Of a stretch of 64,000 bases of DNA, positions 49,047 through 64,000 are shown one piece after another. The first letter of the stretch is position 1; every line of letters begins with the position of its first letter. A model generated the notes under the pieces. The model ran no database searches and was not told where the DNA came from. It saw nothing but the letters and a program-made list of their open reading frames with translations. Position numbers and translations under genes: made by a program. The stretch comes from Alteripontixanthobacter maritimus (lineage in GTDB: Bacteria > Pseudomonadota > Alphaproteobacteria > Sphingomonadales > Sphingomonadaceae), in assembly GCF_003340475.1 (NCBI RefSeq), contig NZ_QBKA01000002.1, positions 815,501 through 879,500 of the forward strand, given 5' to 3'.

Positions 49047-49955
49047 ATGAACGCAAAACGATCTGGCGGCGGCGACCGCAAGGGCATTATTCTGGCAGGG
49101 GGAACCGGCACACGGCTTTGGCCCCTGACGCGCGGCGTGTCGAAGCAACTGATGCCGGTCTATGACAAGCCTATGATCTACTATCCGCTCAGCACCTTGA
49201 TGCTGGCCGGTATCCGCGAAGTGCTGATCATCACCACGCCGCAGGATGCCGAGGCGTTTCGCGCGGTGCTGGGCGATGGTGCGGATTGGGGAATGAGCAT
49301 CGAATATGCCGTGCAACCCACTCCCGACGGGCTGGCGCAAGCGTTTCATATCGGTGCGGACTTCGTGCGCGGTGGACCTAGCTCGCTCGTGCTGGGGGAC
49401 AACATCTTTTACGGCCACGGCCTGCCCGAACTGCTCGGTAATGCAGATGCGCAGACCGATGGCGCCAGCGTTTTTGCCTATTACGTCGGTGATCCGCAGG
49501 CCTATGGGGTGGTCGAATTCGACGAGCAGGGCCGCGCCCGGACGATCGAAGAAAAACCTTCGCAACCTAAGTCCAATTACGCGGTAACAGGCCTGTATTT
49601 CTATGACGAAACCGTTGTCGATCGCGCCCGCGACCTTAAGCCCTCGCCGCGTGGAGAGCTGGAGATTACCGACCTAAACCGGCTGTATCTGGACGACGGC
49701 GCGTTGAATGTGGAAATTATGGGGCGTGGTTACGCCTGGCTCGATACGGGCACGCATTCGTCGTTGCTGGATGCCGGAACCTATGTCCGCATTACCGAGG
49801 AACGGCAGGGGCTGAAGATCTGCTGCCCGGAAGAAATTGCATGGCGCAAGGGCTTCATTGATGACGAGCAGCTTGCCCGCATTGCGGAGCCATTGAAGAA
49901 ATCGGGCTATGGCGACTATCTCGCCGACTTGCCCAACCACCGTTACACCCAATGA
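49047..49955 (+). CDS. rfbA: Glucose-1-phosphate thymidylyltransferase
   Basis: First step of dTDP-L-rhamnose synthesis: glucose-1-phosphate plus dTTP gives dTDP-glucose. It is 302 residues with [16 protein letters not shown], the [16 protein letters not shown] segment and LGDNIFYG. First gene of a tightly overlapped rfbA-rfbC-rfbD-rfbB operon. The stop overlaps rfbC as ATGA. Confidence 0.97.
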
Positions 49956-50497
49956 AGCTGGTACGCGGCGACATCGAGGGGCCGGTGATTATCGAACCGG
50001 CGGTGTTCGGCGACGAACGCGGCTTCTTCATGGAAAGCTGGAACGCGCAAAAATTTGGCAGCGAAGGCCTGCCGACCGAATTTGTGCAGGACAATCATAG
50101 TCGCAGCGGCAAGGGCGTGCTGCGCGGGATGCATTTCCAGAATCCGGGTCCGCAAGGCAAGCTGGTCCGCGTGGTTTCCGGAGCGGTGTACGATGTTGCG
50201 GTCGATTTGCGGCGCTCCAGCGCAACTTTTGGACAATGGATGGGCGTGGAACTAAGCGCGCAGAACAAACGGATATTCTGGGTCCCCCAGGGTTTCGCGC
50301 ACGGCTTTCTGACGTTGGAAGACGGAACGGACTTCCTGTATAAATGCGATGCGGCTTATGCACCCCAAGCCGAACATTCGCTGCAATGGGATGATCCGTC
50401 GGTGGGCATCGAATGGCCACTGGATGGGCTGGAACCGATCCTTTCGGACAAGGACCGAAACGGCACGCCGCTTGCAGAAATCGAGGCATTTGCGTGA
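49952..50497 (+). CDS. rfbC: dTDP-4-dehydrorhamnose 3,5-epimerase
   Basis: Third step of the dTDP-rhamnose pathway. It is 181 residues, cupin fold, with RGMHFQNP (catalytic His), [11 protein letters not shown] and YKCDAAYAP motifs. Starts in ATGA overlap with rfbA and ends in GTGA overlap with rfbD. Confidence 0.96.
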
Positions 50498-51351
50498 AGG
50501 TTCTGGTGACAGGAACCGGCGGACAGGTGGGCTCCGCACTGATGGCCAGTGCGCCTGAGGAATGGGACGTTGTGGGTCTGGCCCGCGCAGAGCTGGATCT
50601 CGCGGACGGCGGGGCAATCCGCGCGATGGTTGCCCGACACAAGCCCGATTTCGTGATCAACGCCGCCGCCTACACCGCTGTTGATAAGGCGGAAGAAGAA
50701 GCGGAACTGGCGCAGGCCATCAACGGCGCGGCACCAGGGCATTTCGCTGCCGCGCTTGCCGAAATGGGCGGCAGGCTGGTGCAGGTCAGCACCGATTTCG
50801 TTTTCGACGGCACCTCGTCCACACCCTATACGCCCGATGCGCCGCGCAACCCGCTTTCCGTTTACGGCGCGAGCAAGGCGGCGGGCGAGGATGCAGCAGG
50901 TGCAGACGCGATCATTTGCCGCACCAGCTGGGTCTATGCCGCAGGCGGCGCGAATTTCGTCCGCACCATGTTGCGTCTGATGGGGGAGCGAGACGCGCTG
51001 AACGTGGTGTCCGACCAGATCGGCGCGCCGACACATGCTGCAGGTCTGGCGCAAGCGTTGTGGGGGCTGGCGCGGGCCAACGTACCGGGCACATATCACT
51101 ATCAGGATGCTGGCGTAGCGAGCTGGTATGATTTCGCTGTGGCAATTTACGAAGAAGCCCGCGCCCTTGGCTTGCTGACGCGCGATGTAGCCATTGCGCC
51201 GATCCCCACCAGCCAATACCCCACACCGGCCGCCCGTCCCGCCTTCAGCGTACTGGACGTGACCGAGACAACCGGCATATTGAACGAGGCCCCATCGCAT
51301 TGGCGCGCAAACCTGCGCGAAATGCTGCAAGAGGAACAGCGCATTGGCTAA
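50494..51351 (+). CDS. rfbD: dTDP-4-dehydrorhamnose reductase
   Basis: Final step to dTDP-L-rhamnose, NADPH-dependent. It is 285 residues with the Rossmann motif GTGGQVGSAL, INAAAYTAVDKAE, the STDFVFDG segment and YGASKAAGE (catalytic Tyr and Lys). GTG start in a GTGA overlap with rfbC. Confidence 0.95.
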   Translation: MKVLVTGTGGQVGSALMASAPEEWDVVGLARAELDLADGGAIRAMVARHKPDFVINAAAYTAVDKAEEEAELAQAINGAAPGHFAAALAEMGGRLVQVSTDFVFDGTSSTPYTPDAPRNPLSVYGASKAAGEDAAGADAIICRTSWVYAAGGANFVRTMLRLMGERDALNVVSDQIGAPTHAAGLAQALWGLARANVPGTYHYQDAGVASWYDFAVAIYEEARALGLLTRDVAIAPIPTSQYPTPAARPAFSVLDVTETTGILNEAPSHWRANLREMLQEEQRIG

Positions 51352-52396
51352 TTTGCTCGTCACTGGCGGGGCCGGTTTTATCGGCGGAAATTTCGTACAT
51401 TATTGGCGCGAAGCGCATCCTGAGGACACGATCCATGTGCTCGATGCGCTGACCTATGCTGGCAATCGTGCGACTATCGCCGATTTGCCGGACGAACAGT
51501 TCGTGGAAGGCGATATTTGCAATTCGGACATGGTTGAAAAGCTGTTGCGTGACCGCGCTATCGATACGGTTGTGCACTTTGCCGCCGAAAGCCACGTCGA
51601 CCGCAGCATTACCGGACCAGACGCATTCATCGAAACCAATGTCGTCGGCACGCACAGTATGTTAAAGGCGGCGCGCAAGGTTTGGCTTGATGGATCGGGA
51701 CGCGGTCACCGCTTCCACCATGTCAGCACCGATGAGGTTTACGGCTCGCTCGGCCCGAATGATCCGGCGTTCAGCGAAACGACCGCGTATGCGCCCAATT
51801 CACCCTATTCGGCCTCCAAGGCTGGCTCCGACCACCTCGTGCGAGCCTATCACCACACGTTCGGGCTGGATGTCACGACCAGCAATTGTTCCAACAATTA
51901 CGGGCCGTACCAGTACCCGGAAAAGCTGATTCCGCTGTTCTTAATCAACGCGCTGCATGGCCGGCCGCTGCCCATTTACGGCGATGGCATGAATGTGCGC
52001 GATTGGCTGCATGTAGAAGACCATTGCCGCGGGATCGAGGCGGCTTTTACCGATGGGAAGGCGGGCGAGGTGTACAATATCGGTGGCGGGCAGGAATTGC
52101 CCAACCTCCATGTGATCGATGCAGTTTGCCGCGGCGTTGACGCTGCATTCGCTGCCGACCCTGAACTGGCTAGGCGGTTCCCGGGCGCACCGGCGGCACA
52201 AGGTAAGCCGAGCGACAGTCTCAAAACCTTTGTCGAGGACCGCAAGGGTCATGACCGCCGTTATGCCATCGATGAAACGAAGGCGCGCGAAGAGCTGGGA
52301 TATTCCGCCAGCCGCACGTTCGATGAAGGTTTCGCGCAAACGCTCGCTTGGTATCTCGATAACGAGGACTGGTGGCGCCCCTTGATGGCGAATTGA
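51344..52396 (+). CDS. rfbB: dTDP-glucose 4,6-dehydratase
   Basis: Second step of the pathway. It is 350 residues with TGGAGFIGGNFVHYW, HFAAESHVDRSI, STDEVYGSLG and YSASKAGSDHLVRAYHHTFG, all diagnostic of RmlB. The start is TTG at 51344, inside the end of rfbD, with GAGGA about eight bases upstream. The gene order A-C-D-B differs from the enteric B-D-A-C order. Confidence 0.96.
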   Translation: MANLLVTGGAGFIGGNFVHYWREAHPEDTIHVLDALTYAGNRATIADLPDEQFVEGDICNSDMVEKLLRDRAIDTVVHFAAESHVDRSITGPDAFIETNVVGTHSMLKAARKVWLDGSGRGHRFHHVSTDEVYGSLGPNDPAFSETTAYAPNSPYSASKAGSDHLVRAYHHTFGLDVTTSNCSNNYGPYQYPEKLIPLFLINALHGRPLPIYGDGMNVRDWLHVEDHCRGIEAAFTDGKAGEVYNIGGGQELPNLHVIDAVCRGVDAAFAADPELARRFPGAPAAQGKPSDSLKTFVEDRKGHDRRYAIDETKAREELGYSASRTFDEGFAQTLAWYLDNEDWWRPLMAN

Positions 52397-55651: not shown

Positions 55652-56806
55652 TTATGCGAGGCCGTGAGCCGTCGCCACTGCCGCAGCGATCCGCGCACTA
55701 GCCTTGCCATCACCATACGGATTATGCGCCTGCGCCATCGCGTCATAGGCCTGTTTATCGTCGAGCAGGCGATTTGCCTCGCTCACAATACGGTCCCGGT
55801 CGGTCGCGACAAGTTTGGCCGTACCGGCGTCGATGCCTTCCGGACGCTCGGTCGTATCGCGCATCACCAGTACCGGCTTGCCGAGGCTTGGCGCTTCTTC
55901 CTGAATGCCGCCGCTGTCGGTCAGCAACAGTTCCGCCATACCCATCAAACGGACGAAATGAGGATAATCGAGCGGCTCGATCAAGGCGACGTTTTCGCGT
56001 CCTGCGAGCGCCGCTTCCATCACCGGGCGCACGTTCGGATTGGGGTGTACGGGGAAAATGACGGCGACATCGTCCCGGTCTGCAATCTGCCCCACCGCAG
56101 CGGCTATACTGCGCATTCCCTCGCCGAAATTCTCACGCCGATGCGCCGTCAAGGCCACGATCCGTTTCCCAGCGAAGCGCGAGGCCACTTCATCGAGCCC
56201 ATTAGCTAAGGAAGCATCCTTTGCCACTCGGTCATGCGTCGACAGCAGGGCGTCGATCACCGTGTTGCCGGTAATGTGAATATTTGCGTCCGGCACATTC
56301 TCGGCCCGCAGCGAGGCCGCAGCCCCATCGGTCGGTGCAAAATGCAGATCGGCGACAGTGCCGGTAACCTTGCGGTTCACTTCCTCGGGCCACGGGGAGT
56401 AGATATCCCCGCTGCGCAGGCCTGCCTCGACATGGCCAACCGGGATCTTGCGGAAATAACTCGCCAGCGTCACCATCATGGTGGTCAGCGTGTCGCCATG
56501 CACAAGCACGCGATCCGGCTTCCATTCGTCCAGCGCCGCGCCGTAGCTGGTGATGATGCGGGCCGATAGATCGTCGAGCGATTGGCCGGCCTGCATCAGA
56601 TCGAGATCGATATCGGGCACGATCCCGCCGATCTCCAGCACCTGGTCGAGCAATTCGCGATGCTGCGCCGTGACCGCCACGCGCACGTCCATCCCGCCGT
56701 GATTGCGTAAAGCGTGTACGACCGGAAACATCTTAATGGCTTCCGGCCTGGTGCCGAAGCTAACCAGAATGCGCGGTTGTCCGGCGGTCTTGGCTGGAGC
56801 GCTCAC
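55652..56806 (-). CDS. wecB: UDP-N-acetylglucosamine 2-epimerase, non-hydrolysing
   Basis: Interconverts UDP-GlcNAc and UDP-ManNAc. About 384 residues: SFGTRPEAIKMFPVV, VHGDTLTTM, GHVEAGLRSGD and LTDSGGIQEEAPSLGKPVLVMRDTTERPEG are all family hallmarks. GTG at 56806 forms a GTGA overlap with wecC; a GTG two codons upstream (56812) is equally possible. Supplies substrate to WecC. Confidence 0.95.
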   Translation of the reverse strand: MSAPAKTAGQPRILVSFGTRPEAIKMFPVVHALRNHGGMDVRVAVTAQHRELLDQVLEIGGIVPDIDLDLMQAGQSLDDLSARIITSYGAALDEWKPDRVLVHGDTLTTMMVTLASYFRKIPVGHVEAGLRSGDIYSPWPEEVNRKVTGTVADLHFAPTDGAAASLRAENVPDANIHITGNTVIDALLSTHDRVAKDASLANGLDEVASRFAGKRIVALTAHRRENFGEGMRSIAAAVGQIADRDDVAVIFPVHPNPNVRPVMEAALAGRENVALIEPLDYPHFVRLMGMAELLLTDSGGIQEEAPSLGKPVLVMRDTTERPEGIDAGTAKLVATDRDRIVSEANRLLDDKQAYDAMAQAHNPYGDGKASARIAAAVATAHGLA

Positions 56807-58056
56807 GCCCACATGCCCCGCGTGTCGTAGGTTATCTTGCCTTCGCTCAAGCTGCGGGGCGCATCCTTGAACGCATCATGATCGACCAGTACCCCGACCA
56901 GTTCGGCCTGGTCCATGGCCGTATCGTAATCTACCAACTGCGCGCCGCGTTGCGCCAGCGTCCCGGGCAGTTCGGTTGTGAATGGTTCTACGACCAACAG
57001 GCGCGGTCCGTAATCGGTGGCCAGTTCCTCGGCAATTTCCAATGCCGGACTTTCGCGGAAATCGTCGATGTTCGGCTTGAACGCCAGGCCCAGCAGCGCA
57101 AGCTTCGCGTCAGGCGCGGCGTCCAGCATGGCGCGCATCCGATTGGCGACATGAACGGCCTTCGCGTCGTTCACTTCGCGGGCGGTACGGATGATGCGAG
57201 CTGTTTCGGGCGAACCTGCAACCAAGAACCATGGATCGACCGCAATGCAATGTCCGCCAACACCGGGGCCGGGCTGAAGGATGTTCACGCGCGGATGCCG
57301 GTTGGCCAGCCGGATGACCTCCCAAACATCGATGCCCTGTTCCTCGGCCAGCAGCGACAGTTCATTGGCGAAGGCGATGTTCACGTCGCGAAAGCTGTTT
57401 TCGGACAACTTGACCATTTCCGCCGCGCCAGCGTTCGACGGCACACATTCGCCATCCACAAACCCGCGATAGAACGCCGCCGCGCGCACTGAGCAGGCAT
57501 CGGTCAATCCGCCGATCACGCGGTCGTTGGCGACCAATTCTTCGATAATTTTTCCAGGGAGCACGCGTTCGGGGCAATAGGCGACGGCAATGTCCGGGGA
57601 GTCGGAATGGCCCGGCACAGCAAGATCGGGACGCAACTCCGCCAGCAATTGCGCGATCGCTGCGGTCGTACCCACTGGCGAGGTCGATTCCAGGATCACG
57701 CAGGCTCCCGGTCGAACCTGCGGCGCGATCATGCGCAGCGCACTTAAAACAAACGAGATATCGGGCTGGTTATCACCCTTGAACGGAGTGGGCACCGCGA
57801 TGAGATAAACGTCCGCCACCGGGGCCTGTGTTGCGGCCGACAGATGCCCACTTTCCACGACGCGGTGGACCAGCTCGTCGAGGTCCTTCTCCTCGATATG
57901 CACCGCGCCCGAATTGATTGTGTCGACCACACTTTGCGTCACGTCGACCCCGCGGACCTTCAAGCCGGAGCGGGCGATTACGGCAGCGGTTGGCAGTCCG
58001 ATATAGCCGAGACCGATCATGGCCACATCGAATTGTGGTGCGTCAGTTGTCGTCAT
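56803..58056 (-). CDS. wecC: UDP-N-acetyl-D-mannosamine dehydrogenase
   Basis: Oxidises UDP-ManNAc to UDP-ManNAcA with two NAD. It is 417 residues with GLGYIGLPTAAVIARSG, the VPTPFKGD segment, ESTSPVGTT and the active-site region GVGGHCIAVDPWF containing the catalytic Cys. Start ATG 58056; a further in-frame ATG at 58083 lacks homology. Coupled to wecB. Confidence 0.93.
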   Translation of the reverse strand: MTTTDAPQFDVAMIGLGYIGLPTAAVIARSGLKVRGVDVTQSVVDTINSGAVHIEEKDLDELVHRVVESGHLSAATQAPVADVYLIAVPTPFKGDNQPDISFVLSALRMIAPQVRPGACVILESTSPVGTTAAIAQLLAELRPDLAVPGHSDSPDIAVAYCPERVLPGKIIEELVANDRVIGGLTDACSVRAAAFYRGFVDGECVPSNAGAAEMVKLSENSFRDVNIAFANELSLLAEEQGIDVWEVIRLANRHPRVNILQPGPGVGGHCIAVDPWFLVAGSPETARIIRTAREVNDAKAVHVANRMRAMLDAAPDAKLALLGLAFKPNIDDFRESPALEIAEELATDYGPRLLVVEPFTTELPGTLAQRGAQLVDYDTAMDQAELVGVLVDHDAFKDAPRSLSEGKITYDTRGMWA

Positions 58057-58192
58057 GTACGGATTGGCCCTAAGGCCCCCCATCGAATTGCAGTCGTGAA
58101 GCCCATAGCGGACCGGGTGCGTTTTGCCACGGGCAAGTTTGCAGCTGTTTAAACCGATTGCCGGTAAAGGGCTGGTCGAAGCATGGACCGGA

Positions 58193-58966
58193 TCACGACG
58201 AAATTGGGTTCCGTCCGCTCAGCCGCGTTTTCAGCAGAAGCATGGCAAACGCGCTATTCGTGCTGGCGTAACGGCCCACCATCTTGCGCGGCTCCTTCAC
58301 CATCCTGTGGAACCATTCAAGCCCCGCTTGCTGCATCCATTCAGGCGCGCGGCTGACATGCCCGGCCAGAACATCGACACTGCCGCCTACACCCATGATG
58401 AAGGGTACGCGCAGCTTGCTGGCATTGCGGTTGAGGAAGCGTTCCTTGTGCGGCGTCGGCATGGCGACGAACAGGCAATCCGCGCCGCTTTCGCGAATAC
58501 CGGTGACGATTTCCGACTCGTCTTCTTGAGCGAAATAACCGTGGCGCGATCCGGCGAATTCCAAGCCGGGGAAGCGGCGCTTGGCCTCGATTATAGCGGC
58601 ATCGAGCTGCGATTGTTTTGCGCCGAGAATATACGGCCGCCTACCGGTGCGCGCGCAATGAGCGAGCAGTTCGAGAAACAGATCGACCCCAGGCACGCGC
58701 TGCGCGCCGTCTACACCGAACATCTTCAACCCGAGCACGATCCCCATACCATCGATCCCAATGATATCGCTGCCCCGAACATCTGCTGCCAGCTCGGGAT
58801 CCTTGTCGAGCTTGATAAGCTTGGCCACGTTTAGCGCCGTATGGCGAACGGGCGGGCTAGCGGGATCGGTATCGCGTGCACTCATCGCGGCTTCGGCGCG
58901 CGCAACCGTCTGATCCATGGTCAAAAGATCGACCGGCGTGTCGAAGAACCTGATTCGGCGGGTCAT
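58193..58966 (-). CDS. WecG/TagA/CpsF family glycosyltransferase
   Basis: 257 residues of the GT26 family: GIDGMGIVLGLK, RVPGVDLFLELL, PYILGAKQ, FVAMPTPHKERF and GVGGSVDVLAGHVSRAPEWMQ. Members transfer ManNAc or ManNAcA to undecaprenyl-PP-GlcNAc. With wecB and wecC beside it, ManNAcA transfer (WecG) is the best guess. Starts in ATGA overlap with the upstream polymerase-like gene. A 136-base gap separates it from wecC, with no clear signal in it. Confidence 0.9.
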   Translation of the reverse strand: MTRRIRFFDTPVDLLTMDQTVARAEAAMSARDTDPASPPVRHTALNVAKLIKLDKDPELAADVRGSDIIGIDGMGIVLGLKMFGVDGAQRVPGVDLFLELLAHCARTGRRPYILGAKQSQLDAAIIEAKRRFPGLEFAGSRHGYFAQEDESEIVTGIRESGADCLFVAMPTPHKERFLNRNASKLRVPFIMGVGGSVDVLAGHVSRAPEWMQQAGLEWFHRMVKEPRKMVGRYASTNSAFAMLLLKTRLSGRNPISS

Positions 58967-60387
58967 GCGGTGTATGAGCGTACATGCTCTGGCGGACGGT
59001 CTTTAGGCAAAGGTAGAGCACCTGCGGGACTGTGTGTGCTGGTTACGCCAGAATGCGATGGCCGGACGACGTTAGGCAATTGAGCGCGGCGCTGGGCCGT
59101 ATCGCTCAAAGCTAGGGACACGGCAGCGCCGGTAAAGGCCAAGTACCAGCTGTTGGCGCCGCCAAAATACGCGACCGTAAATCCAAGGAAGGTTAGTAAG
59201 AAAAGCAGAATTGCGATTGATTTATAAAATAGAGCATCCTGCCCTCGCGATCGGCCAGCTGCTTTCGCGACCATGTTAATCGATACTATTGCCAGTGCGA
59301 AAAATAGCAGGGCCGTGGGAAACCCATGGCGCAATGCCAAAAGGAGCCAATGGGAATCGACAGTTGCGTTGACCATCCAGGCCGGGCGGTCGTACCCGGC
59401 AAAACCAATACCGAAAATCGGATTGTTCAAAGCAGTCGCGAAACCAAATTCGTAAATCAACATACGATAGTTGCCGGTAGCGGCGCTTAGAGTCAGATAT
59501 CGAACGATAAACGAGAATACCCCGCTTTGAGTTAAAACCTGCAACAATAGCATGATAACCGAAGTAAATATTATCGCGGTCTTCCAACTCAAAAGCATGG
59601 TGCGGCTTTGCAACCAATCGTAGAAGATCATTACAAAGCCTAGGAAAAGACCGATGAGAGCGGCAGAGCTAAGGGAAAAGAAACTGAGTAGGGCAGCAAT
59701 CGTACCGGCGATGCGGGGCCATTTGCGTATTCCCCCAATCAAATAAATTGGTAGGATTGAGCATAGTATTAGCCCGCCAAGAATAGGATGCGAGAACGGT
59801 CCGCTGGACCGTAAGAGGCCGAGCCGATATTCGCTTTGTAGCGTTTGACCGGTTATTTCCAAACCAGCATCGTAGTAAGGTAACGGCCCGAAAATCCCTG
59901 CAAATATAGGCTTTACAATTGGCGCACCCCTGATTGATTCGAGTGCCATCGAGCCGCCAGCGATCAACAAGCCAAAGACGATCAATATCATGACCGTGCG
60001 AAATTCTGCCATATTGCGTACCGAGTATCTGCCTATGAAATAAGCCATCGCGGTATCAAGAGCGAGCGCACCCCCGCGCTCAAGGCCGGACGTAATACCG
60101 TAATGGTAGCTCATACTGACGAAGATAAACAAGCTGCCAAGCCCGAGCAGCGTATCGCAGAGCGTAATCCTTAAGGCACGATTGGCAAAGGCTGAAATAA
60201 TTAGGGGTAGCGCAGCGATGGCAACCAGCCGATCGGCAAAGAACACAAGGTCGCCGGCCGAGAGGCGAACCTCGCGCGGTAGCAAAAGCGCATAAATGAA
60301 AATAACCAGCAGCCAGACGGTCGGTCTTCCCGTGTGAGCGGCGTTCGCGAGTGTTATTGGTCTGCTTCTATCCATGGTCAGTAACAT
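58963..60387 (-). CDS. O-antigen polymerase/ligase-like membrane protein
   Basis: 474 residues with about ten to twelve hydrophobic helices and a large periplasmic loop in the second half, as in Wzy polymerases and WaaL ligases. A loop containing GNYRMLIYEFGFATALNNPIFG resembles the Wzy_C/O-antigen ligase motif. Polymerase and ligase cannot be told apart by sequence alone; position with wecG-wecC-wecB favours polymerase. Composition is clearly more AT-rich than the window average. An ATG at 60375 is an alternative start. Confidence 0.85.
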   Translation of the reverse strand: MLLTMDRSRPITLANAAHTGRPTVWLLVIFIYALLLPREVRLSAGDLVFFADRLVAIAALPLIISAFANRALRITLCDTLLGLGSLFIFVSMSYHYGITSGLERGGALALDTAMAYFIGRYSVRNMAEFRTVMILIVFGLLIAGGSMALESIRGAPIVKPIFAGIFGPLPYYDAGLEITGQTLQSEYRLGLLRSSGPFSHPILGGLILCSILPIYLIGGIRKWPRIAGTIAALLSFFSLSSAALIGLFLGFVMIFYDWLQSRTMLLSWKTAIIFTSVIMLLLQVLTQSGVFSFIVRYLTLSAATGNYRMLIYEFGFATALNNPIFGIGFAGYDRPAWMVNATVDSHWLLLALRHGFPTALLFFALAIVSINMVAKAAGRSRGQDALFYKSIAILLFLLTFLGFTVAYFGGANSWYLAFTGAAVSLALSDTAQRRAQLPNVVRPSHSGVTSTHSPAGALPLPKDRPPEHVRSYTA

Positions 60388-60772: not shown

Positions 60773-61426
60773 ATGTCGCTGTCTGATCCACGGAACAACC
60801 GTTCGTTATCATATAAGCTGCGCAGTCGTAGAGACAGGTTTCTCCGCAAGTTCCTAGTAAATAACGGGCGGCGGATTCTCGATTTAGGTGGGACGGCGCA
60901 TTACTGGCGGCGCGTCGGTCTGAACTTCCTCAACGAGAATGGCTTTACAGTCACGATAGTAAATTTGGAAGCCAACGACCTTGGAACAGGACCTTTCAAG
61001 ATGCTCGTTGGTGATGCCACCCAGTTGGATTTACCCGACGGCTCCTTCGATATCGTTCATTCAAACTCCGTTATCGAGCATGTTGGCGGGCAAGCAGAAA
61101 TTGCCGCCTTTGCTTGTGAAACGCGGCGACTGGCCCCGGCACATTATGTGCAAACGCCAAATTTCTGGTTTCCCATCGATCCTCATTTCTGGAAATTTCC
61201 AGGGTTCCACTGGTTGCCAGAATCGGTACGAGCCAGACTATTGCAAAAGTTTTCCATCGCAACAGCAGGCCGTATCGGAGACTATCAAAAAGCGCTTCAC
61301 GCTGTCCGGGGAACACGCTTGTTATCCATCGATCAATGTAAAGCGCTGTTTCCGGAATCCAAATTGACAACCGAGAAGTTTCTGGGGCTCAATAAATCAT
61401 TAATTCTCTATAGAAACGCCAGTTAA
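60773..61426 (+). CDS. Class I SAM-dependent methyltransferase
   Basis: 217 residues with motif I ILDLGGTAHYW, acidic motif II VNLEAND, GDATQLDLPDGSFDIVHSNSVIEH (post-I and motif III) typical of Methyltransf_11-type enzymes. Substrate unknown; position suggests sugar or lipid-linked glycan methylation. AT-rich like its neighbours, and possibly acquired with them. Confidence 0.88.
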   Translation: MSLSDPRNNRSLSYKLRSRRDRFLRKFLVNNGRRILDLGGTAHYWRRVGLNFLNENGFTVTIVNLEANDLGTGPFKMLVGDATQLDLPDGSFDIVHSNSVIEHVGGQAEIAAFACETRRLAPAHYVQTPNFWFPIDPHFWKFPGFHWLPESVRARLLQKFSIATAGRIGDYQKALHAVRGTRLLSIDQCKALFPESKLTTEKFLGLNKSLILYRNAS

Positions 61427-61443: not shown

Positions 61444-62460
61444 TTATACATCATAGCTTCGCTCTATAATGCCGTCCTCCTTCCTAAACATTTCGCGCAG
61501 TCTGATGCGCCAATCGTGACGCTCGGCAGTTTCGCGGGCGTTCCTTGATCCGATCTCCTGTAGATGGTCTGATTGCGAAGCCAGATCGGTAAGAAATGCA
61601 CGCGCTTCGGGTGCTTCGTCAGGCAACTCTAGCAGAGCATCGGGCCAGTCGAACAGATCGCTCGTTTCCGGTGCGCTGGGGCGTTGGCCGGCAATAACAC
61701 ATCCTGCAGCCATCGATTCGTACCAGCGTTGACCAACGAAAGAACAGGTAAATCGGTTATGCGGGTCGTAAGCTTCAGGCGCGTAGGCAAGAGCAATCTT
61801 CGAATAGCGTAGCAGGCTGGCGAAGTGAGCTCGGTGCGCTACCCAATCGGTAAGAGCGCCTATCGTCATATGGTTCGTATGATGGAAAAACCCGCGCTTT
61901 TCAATGTTGTGATACTGTGCGAGCTCCGCGCTCAATTCAGGGGGCTGGCGGCCATATCCGTTCACATCGATCGGTCTGGACTTCATTGGCACGTCACTGC
62001 CGAACAATCGTGTGTCGACACCGATGGGCATGTAGGAAACCTTGGTGCCAAGCAGGTCCGCCTGCTCTGCGATCAGGCTTCTCATGGGTGTGAAAATTTC
62101 GTCGACCCGGCTCAGCAACTTGCGATAGCTGGTAAACGGCCGCAAGGCGCGCGGGATCTTCACGAGTTTTGGCGATAAAAATCCATCAAAAACATAGGCG
62201 TAAACTTTCGCATTCGCGGAAATTCTGTCCCTGTATTCTGCAAGATCGGCAACCAGGGTGGCAAAGCCGATTGCGGTGAAAATCCACGGAAGATCACCAT
62301 GCTCCCCCACTTCCGAAGGGGCATGCACGACCTTACACGCGATCGTATCAGCAATGACACGGTCGAGTTCCAACACACACGCCTGGGCCGGGATGCATGG
62401 CAGCCCCGGCGGATCGGTCACCAGGAGCACGGTCGGCGTTTCCAATTCAGTTTTAGCCAT
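61444..62460 (-). CDS. Putative glycosyltransferase, GT-B fold
   Basis: 338 residues. The C-terminal half (FSFVGQRWYESMAAGCVIAG-like segment, with E-S-M-A-A-G-C) matches the donor-binding part of group 1 glycosyltransferases; the N-terminal half is diverged and holds a sugar-nucleotide-like LVTDPPGLP. The usual EX7E motif is not obvious, so activity is not certain. It converges on the methyltransferase gene with 17 bases between stops. Confidence 0.7.
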   Translation of the reverse strand: MAKTELETPTVLLVTDPPGLPCIPAQACVLELDRVIADTIACKVVHAPSEVGEHGDLPWIFTAIGFATLVADLAEYRDRISANAKVYAYVFDGFLSPKLVKIPRALRPFTSYRKLLSRVDEIFTPMRSLIAEQADLLGTKVSYMPIGVDTRLFGSDVPMKSRPIDVNGYGRQPPELSAELAQYHNIEKRGFFHHTNHMTIGALTDWVAHRAHFASLLRYSKIALAYAPEAYDPHNRFTCSFVGQRWYESMAAGCVIAGQRPSAPETSDLFDWPDALLELPDEAPEARAFLTDLASQSDHLQEIGSRNARETAERHDWRIRLREMFRKEDGIIERSYDV

Positions 62461-62775
62461 TTCCCGGTCCCTTCAGGCGGCCAGACTCTGCTTGTCGCTC
62501 TGGCGCTTCAAACAAAGATAGGAACCAATGATCTTGATGCATTCGGGGCGGTCCGGCTGTCATGAACACGGGCTATGTTTGCAGGCGAGTTCACTGGTCC
62601 GGTTGCCTACCAAAGTCAAAACTGCACTAGCCAGATTCCTCGCCAACACGGACCGTGTTTCTCAGCATACGACCGCGGCGATCCATCTATGCCGAATCAC
62701 AGAAAACGCTTTCCTACAGCAATGCCTTGCTCATAGCGCGCCTGTTCTTGTTTTGTTTCAACTGGAGAATCGCTT
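62461..62775. other. Intergenic region before the spike-like genes
   Basis: 315 bases between the divergent glycosyltransferase and the spike-like gene. No convincing open reading frame, tRNA fragment or attachment-site repeat was found. It holds the palindrome at 62645-62659, and GGAGA seven bases before the next ATG. Confidence 0.6.
62645..62659. promoter_or_regulatory. Palindrome upstream of the spike-like operon
   Basis: AACACGG-A-CCGTGTT: two perfect seven-base arms around one base, about 117 bases before the spike-like gene. Operator-like, but without a recognised regulator. Confidence 0.35.
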
Positions 62776-63045
62776 ATGTCGCTCGATATTTTTTCCGGCC
62801 ATTCCGATACGCCGTCCGCCCCGGCACGGGCTTGCTTTGCTGTCAGCCCCTCGGACACCGAAAACCTGCCAAGGGTGCCGAAGGCGCTGTATGTCGGAAC
62901 CAGCGGGGACATTACGCTGCGCTGCGCCGACGATAATCTTGATGTTATCTTCCGCAATGTGCCTGCCGGTATGATCCTGGACATTCGCGTTACCAATGTC
63001 CGTGCAAGCGGCACGACCGCTGCCGACATCGTGGCGCTCGCCTGA
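62776..63045 (+). CDS. Spike base protein-like, RCAP_rcc01079 family (gene transfer agent head spike)
   Basis: 89 residues. The pattern ARACFAVSPSDTENLP, ALYVGTSGDITLR, FRNVPAGMILDIRV and RASGTTAADIVALA matches what I recall of the rcc01079-type spike base protein. In Rhodobacter capsulatus rcc01079 and rcc01080 (ghsA, ghsB) encode the head spikes of gene transfer agent RcGTA that bind the recipient's capsule. Start ATG 62776 has GGAGA seven bases upstream. The stop overlaps the next start as TGATG, as expected for a two-gene spike module. No other phage structural genes are in view. Confidence 0.77.
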   Translation: MSLDIFSGHSDTPSAPARACFAVSPSDTENLPRVPKALYVGTSGDITLRCADDNLDVIFRNVPAGMILDIRVTNVRASGTTAADIVALA

Positions 63046-64000
63046 TGGGGGCGTTGGGTTTTGGATTCGGATCAAACGTACGATCACGGGCGCATTTGCT
63101 GATGAATGGCGGTGCGGTGCCTGTGGCGCCGTGGCAACCTACCGGCGCGGTTGGAACCGATGGCTGGTCCGTCACCACCGCATCGCCTCGGGATCTGTCC
63201 TTTGCCGCCGTTCCGGTGGACCGGGCCGGCTTCGACCAAACCGGTATGGCTACCACTTGGAAGGAAAGCGTGCTGCTGACCAAGCGTGTCCGCCAGGCAT
63301 ACCCAGACGAAGCTGCATTTACGGCAGACCGGATTGCGGTGTCGGATTATATCTATGCCGAGGATATAGCGAAGGGTTTTACAAACGGGAGTTTGGAAAC
63401 CAGTCCGCCACCCATTGCAGCCTGGATAATGCCCGCATGCGAGCTGGTTGCAGGATCGGTCCATTGGGAAATAGCGGCCTATCATCGTGACGCGCGCTCG
63501 GATCCGATAACCGGTGTTGGCCGTCAGGTCGCCGCGGTACGGGTGCGAGCCAATAACGGCACCGAGGCGTCGCCTTGGCAGACGGTCGGTAAAACGTCGA
63601 TATCCACACTTTGCCAGGATGCATCCGCCATGGAATGCTTCGAGGGCGATCTGGACATCGGCGCATTGGCCGACGGCCCGTTCTGGCTGGAAGCGGAAGT
63701 GTTCCCCTGGTTTGGCGGTACCGGCAGCGTGCTGAAAAGCGAAGCGCGCACTGGCCAGCGGGAATTCTCGCGCCGCTGGTTCTGCAAGAACGTCACCCGC
63801 GCAGCTAACCCACCGATGGTGTATGTGGCGTCTACTGGTGATGATGCCCTGGGTGAGGTGTCATCTGACAGCGCAACTGCTCGGGCAAAGCCTTGCCGAA
63901 CCTTGGGCGGCGCTTGGGCTCGCGCTCGCACCGTGTTGGGTAACGGCCGTGGTACGATGGACGGCCTGCGTGTTCGAGTGCTGGATACGGTCGATAGTGG
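63045..64000 (+). CDS. Large spike/fibre-like protein, rcc01080-type, cut by the window end
   Basis: The frame is open from the ATG at 63045 to the last base, at least 318 residues, so the C-terminus lies outside. The first 250 residues (SYIYAEDIA-like and WIMPACELVAGSVHWEIAAYHRD segments) resemble the large partner of the rcc01079-type spike base. From about residue 265 the pattern VYVASTGDDALGEVSSDS..AKPCRTLGGAWARA looks like the onset of a right-handed beta-helix, as in tailspikes that touch polysaccharide. The ATG overlaps the preceding TGA. Identity of the pair is inferred from the first gene and this layout. Confidence 0.72.
   Translation, partial: MGALGFGFGSNVRSRAHLLMNGGAVPVAPWQPTGAVGTDGWSVTTASPRDLSFAAVPVDRAGFDQTGMATTWKESVLLTKRVRQAYPDEAAFTADRIAVSDYIYAEDIAKGFTNGSLETSPPPIAAWIMPACELVAGSVHWEIAAYHRDARSDPITGVGRQVAAVRVRANNGTEASPWQTVGKTSISTLCQDASAMECFEGDLDIGALADGPFWLEAEVFPWFGGTGSVLKSEARTGQREFSRRWFCKNVTRAANPPMVYVASTGDDALGEVSSDSATARAKPCRTLGGAWARARTVLGNGRGTMDGLRVRVLDTVDS

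Follow-up and report, generated by a model that had tools for sequence, protein, structure and literature searches.

A Head-Spike Gene Pair of the Gene Transfer Agent Type within an Exopolysaccharide Locus of Alteripontixanthobacter maritimus

Results

The Spike Pair and the Surrounding Locus

The window analysed here, i.e., the whole stretch of 64,000 nucleotides from the Alteripontixanthobacter maritimus genome, carries at its right end a gene for a head-spike base protein of 89 aa belonging to the Rcc01079 family (62776–63045, + strand), followed by a head-spike fibre gene of which the first 318 of 702 codons fall within the window (63045–64000, + strand, continuing to 65153 outside it). 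The base gene is an intact frame of 89 codons, and the long frame behind it begins within the base stop codon, in the TGATG overlap described by the first-pass annotation. Upstream of the pair, Pfam identified a glycosyltransferase (Glyco_trans_1_2; 61444–62460, - strand), a methyltransferase (60773–61426, + strand), a WecG/TagA glycosyltransferase (58193–58966, - strand), a UDP-sugar dehydrogenase of the UDP-ManNAc dehydrogenase type (56803–58083, - strand) and a UDP-GlcNAc 2-epimerase (55652–56812, - strand); an O-antigen ligase/polymerase-like protein (Wzy_C; 58963–60387, - strand) was matched at E 3e-6, below the Pfam cut-off. RmlA/RmlD/RmlB-like dTDP-rhamnose genes (49047–52396, + strand) were read from sequence only. 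The first-pass annotation had likewise placed rhamnose, ManNAcA and O-antigen polymerase-type genes beside the spike. Downstream of the fibre gene Pfam identified SGNH, methyltransferase, acetyltransferase and Wzc genes, and Wzx, glycosyltransferase and Wza genes were assigned there by reading the sequence. As exopolysaccharide (EPS) genes flank the pair on both sides, it lies inside the polysaccharide locus and not at its end, where it had originally been placed.

The base protein matched NF048002.1 (“spike base protein, RCAP_Rcc01079 family”; NCBIfam) over residues 4–88 at 1e-31 and 109.1 bits, the curated cut-off being 28 bits, and belongs to the family over its whole length. PHROG 12296 was a further match, and a profile built from 34 relatives matched the solved base of the Rhodobacter capsulatus GTA (RcGTA; PDB 6tb9) at E 2.2e-17, whereas a Pfam search returned no family for either base or fibre, the fibre body included. 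The resemblance to rcc01079 noted in the first-pass annotation was thus borne out. The window copy is the only base gene in its genome.

The first nine residues of the fibre, MGALGFGFG, are a candidate docking peptide resembling IALGLGLGL of RcGTA, where fibre residues 2–10 lie on the base pentamer as a five-point star (PMC7296036); such an alternating hydrophobic-glycine N-terminus is a mark of the RcGTA-type head spike. Defined strictly as hydrophobic-Gly-hydrophobic-Gly in residues 2–14, the motif was found in 32 of 51 EPS-linked fibres vs. 41 of the 789 genes called in those loci, spikes counted in. A tie between this motif and the presence of a GTA capsid was suggestive in the first 25 genomes and vanished with the rest (26/13 vs. 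5/6). Behind the docking peptide the fibre bodies diverge widely (13% mean column identity among 45 fibres), and among their distal parts Pfam identified GDSL hydrolase (9 of 45) as well as arabinofuranosidase, beta-helix, and lectin-like domains, with no such domain in the window's fibre. The window's fibre body is 55–58% identical to those of two relatives with similar EPS loci. A profile search of the PDB with the fibre matched no RcGTA chain. AlphaFold models had a pLDDT of 32 with 4 sequences and a mean of 51.5 with 6 sequences, residues about 122–466 being partly confident, and fold searches from the poor model gave nothing usable.

The GTA Cluster of the Genome

One HK97-type capsid gene is present in the genome (C2:2226255), and through it a single RcGTA-like head-tail cluster was located 1.35 Mb from the spike pair and devoid of a base gene. 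The cluster (L074) has the canonical gene order of an RcGTA-type GTA, and its Pfam matches comprise terminase (TerL), portal, capsid, tail tube, DUF2460, hub, NlpC/P60, and Rcc01698_C. A search for GTA_TIM (PF13547) found no match. The head-tail cluster that the first-pass annotation had suggested looking for therefore exists. In the g12 homologue of the cluster (L074:11868-14363, G000:C2, 831 aa as called), the non-contractile tail sheath domains PF23844 and PF23845 are fused to DUF2460.

Two Genomic Homes of the Spike

A base match was found in 53 of 299 genomes of the family. The family survey contained 41 full-length loci, the window included, with 25 in EPS loci, 12 in the GTA cluster, exactly between the GTA capsid gene and g6, and 4 elsewhere, and for 63 additional loci, all from named genomes, the corresponding numbers were 26, 21, and 16. 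Homes were assigned by sequence similarity, with marker proteins taken from the window and from the GTA cluster of its genome; of the four unassigned loci carrying the promoter element described below, at least three also hold sugar-transfer genes. None of the surveyed loci combines the two settings. That the GTA-embedded class consists of prophages was ruled out, as its capsids match that of the GTA and the gene order is canonical. With 37 of 41 family loci in one of the two homes vs. any EPS marker in only 1 of 30 random loci, the location of the spike in relatives is not random. None of the three observations by which the first-pass annotation proposed to overturn its own claim, i.e., no likeness to rcc01079, no GTA cluster in the genome and random loci in relatives, was thus made. 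The base tree, which is weakly resolved (89 columns), requires a minimum of three switches from one home to the other. Outside the family, nine loci were found, two of them EPS-linked (L215, L217), several in prophages and three elsewhere. Three loci from one genus of another family (L210, L211, L213) have the base gene in a conserved chromosomal setting that is neither EPS nor GTA, with neighbours that read as murA-like and hisD-like genes.

A Promoter Element Common to Spike and GTA Genes

A promoter-type element, AAAACGCTTTCCTACA (62703–62718, + strand), is located 73 nt before the base ATG. In EPS-linked loci the element, YTTTCCTAC(A), lies about 55–80 nt upstream of this codon, and YTTTCCTACA occurs within 130 nt in 37 of 51 EPS-linked loci, in 0 of 33 GTA-embedded loci (Fisher 2e-12) and in 1 of 493 control genes. 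Across 34 genomes, the extended pattern WWWNNRYTTTCCTACA matched well over 100 times and its reversed control 4 times. Of the 87 distinct sites examined, 53 precede seven recurrent gene families: TerS-like (11), DUF6456 (10), phage lysozyme (8), HTH (7), spike base (6), a small unknown protein (6), and GTA_holin_3TM (5). The pattern was derived from spike promoters, but holin, lysozyme, and DUF6456 genes played no part in its derivation. The element is thus common to GTA lysis and regulatory genes, and one of the TerS-like sites belongs to the GTA operon TerS of one genome (L297). In the window's own genome it also precedes the GTA holin (C2:1568266), a TerS-like gene (1489918) and an IrrE-type protein (1894087).

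Several genes under the element deserve separate mention. TerS-like HTH genes were seen at L251, L254, L278, L281, L282, L287, L302, L306, L312, and L315; some genomes have several such genes each, L297 being the sole copy placed in a GTA cluster. A family of 75–88 aa proteins lies directly under the element (L260, L266, L295, L327, L331, L335), and in the window's genome the gene near it at G000:C2:1894087 (L280) is of the IrrE/M78 peptidase type.

In R. capsulatus, GafA and CtrA trigger the late genes of the GTA, among them those for head spike, tail fibre and lysis, and GafA homologues are annotated as DUF6456 (PMC9638019), while GafY of Caulobacter binds about 18 accessory promoters (PMC11150451). 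Because the motif precedes GTA holin, endolysin, DUF6456, and TerS-like genes, membership of the EPS-linked spike in the GTA regulon is very probable. A second signal, TAACC-N5-GG, is found upstream of 15 of 19 GTA operons, mostly just ahead of a TTGACA-like box, and palindromes of the TAACC-N5-GGTTA type precede eight EPS-linked spikes and 0 of 493 controls.

Co-inheritance of Spike and EPS Type

In the 24 genomes with EPS-linked spikes compared, spike similarity correlated with EPS gene sharing given rpoB (0.40, p = 0.0005, which is the permutation floor of the test), and partial Mantel coefficients for spike vs. EPS content beyond species phylogeny were 0.37–0.45. Of these genomes, 19 have a GTA capsid, and in them agreement with rpoB was seen for the capsid (0.54) but not for base (-0.10), spike (0.12), or EPS content (0.04). 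With rpoB controlled for, base and EPS correlated at 0.71 and spike and EPS at 0.45 in the 19 genomes; the capsid also correlates with EPS (0.52), and with both rpoB and capsid held the values were 0.37 for spike (p 0.002) and 0.62 for base. These data show that spike and EPS genes are co-inherited by linkage. The earlier idea that the spike and the genes for its receptor are swapped together is thereby supported as far as co-inheritance is concerned, while kin recognition by matching of spike and EPS is plausible.

Discussion

The pair, carried in the EPS locus, is likely to provide the resident RcGTA-type GTA with its head spike, co-expressed with the GTA and matched to the coat. Pentamers of the base would occupy the capsid vertices and the fibre would dock onto them through its alternating hydrophobic-glycine N-terminus, leaving the body to bind, or trim, the cell's own EPS. 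The genes in the EPS locus would be switched on together with the GTA via the shared promoter element. As the spike genes are located within polysaccharide loci here and in many relatives, a presumed sugar-binding protein is inherited together with the genes that make the coat, and since linkage means joint inheritance of spike and EPS type the particles would tend to match the coats of related cells. We infer incorporation into the particle, EPS binding, and a benefit from targeting kin.

The reason for the linkage is a different matter. It is quite possible that EPS loci are recombination hot spots in which the pair landed and with which it now moves along, without any selection for matching; this concerns why the genes are linked and is compatible with the pair being a GTA spike. 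In agreement with this, Wza and Wzc, which are generic genes linked to the pair, show a covariation with EPS content as strong as that of the spike, so that linkage alone may be enough to explain it. Similarly, one pair of genomes (G240 and G079) has an EPS sharing of 0.59 and a spike similarity of 0, and with about three changes of home on the base tree relocation appears to be rare. On the other hand, EPS linkage is also seen in R. capsulatus (PMC10218006) and at L215 and L217 in other families, which suggests repeated arrival or long retention, and the distal fibre domains include carbohydrate-acting types.

It is less probable, and we regard it as unlikely, that the pair works independently of the GTA, as a secreted or surface protein that binds or modifies EPS and has a pentameric base of its own. 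The GDSL and arabinofuranosidase domains in distal fibre parts would fit such a role. Six of the 25 surveyed genomes with EPS-linked spikes are without a Phage_capsid match, and five of 25 named ones lack a GTA capsid match, although some of these are incomplete metagenome bins. The spike can therefore outlive the structural cluster or act without one, and pairs in such genomes are intact. However, the promoter motif is common to GTA holin, endolysin, and TerS-like genes, and relatives carry the same base between capsid and g6. Furthermore, G079, which has no Phage_capsid match at all, retains a gene resembling GTA_holin_3TM downstream of the element (L256, G079:C2:251515), an apparent relic that suggests a recent loss of the structural cluster. 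That the pair was left by a siphophage, as a prophage remnant or moron, is very unlikely, for even though the fibre body resembles phage proteins (43% identity with an IMG/VR contig and 32% with Synechococcus phages) and phages such as RcapNL carry relatives of the base, there are no phage genes around the pair, the frames are intact, the promoter element is conserved in many genera, and the phage relatives of the body have different N-termini and no base gene within the stretch fetched.

If the pair is the spike of the resident GTA, it is tempting to speculate, and we do so tentatively, that the spike genes of the GTA in sphingomonads and related Alphaproteobacteria make up, with those for its polysaccharide receptor, one mobile, co-inherited cassette for kin recognition, exchanged as a whole and tied to the GTA regulon through YTTTCCTACA, so that DNA would go mainly to cells with the same coat. 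The persistence of costly GTAs is an open question, and according to one proposal their delivery is restricted to kin by receptors (discussed in PMC10883770). Joint inheritance of a receptor-binding protein and the genes that make the receptor would render this proposal directly testable. For sphingomonads the promoter element provides a handle on dispersed GTA genes, and a natural comparison is offered by the two locations of the spike.

That spike genes adjoin capsule genes is already known from R. capsulatus, where the capsule cluster is required for GTA binding and both adjacency and co-regulation have been stated (PMC10218006). As far as the literature was searched, the recurrence of this arrangement, the two-home pattern, the co-variation with EPS, and the promoter motif were not found described. 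The accessory GTA regulon of GafY/GafA in Caulobacter and R. capsulatus is similar in that dispersed lysis and spike genes are co-activated, and differs in that YTTTCCTACA was not found in the GafY/GafA literature searched. The GTA-embedded pair of the Sphingomonas type, between the capsid gene and g6, has the same base family and a docking motif partly in common with the window, but it is located inside the GTA operon and has neither YTTTCCTACA nor EPS linkage. The closest parallel is GhsA/GhsB (Rcc01079/Rcc01080) of RcGTA. The window's fibre is longer than GhsB (702 vs. 325 aa), its body is related to phage proteins, its promoter element was not found in the RcGTA literature searched and its host is from another bacterial order. 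The two pairs nevertheless have in common the base family, the adjacency of base and fibre genes, a docking peptide at the fibre N-terminus, and a location next to capsule genes (rcc01081-01086 in RcGTA) and apart from the head-tail cluster.
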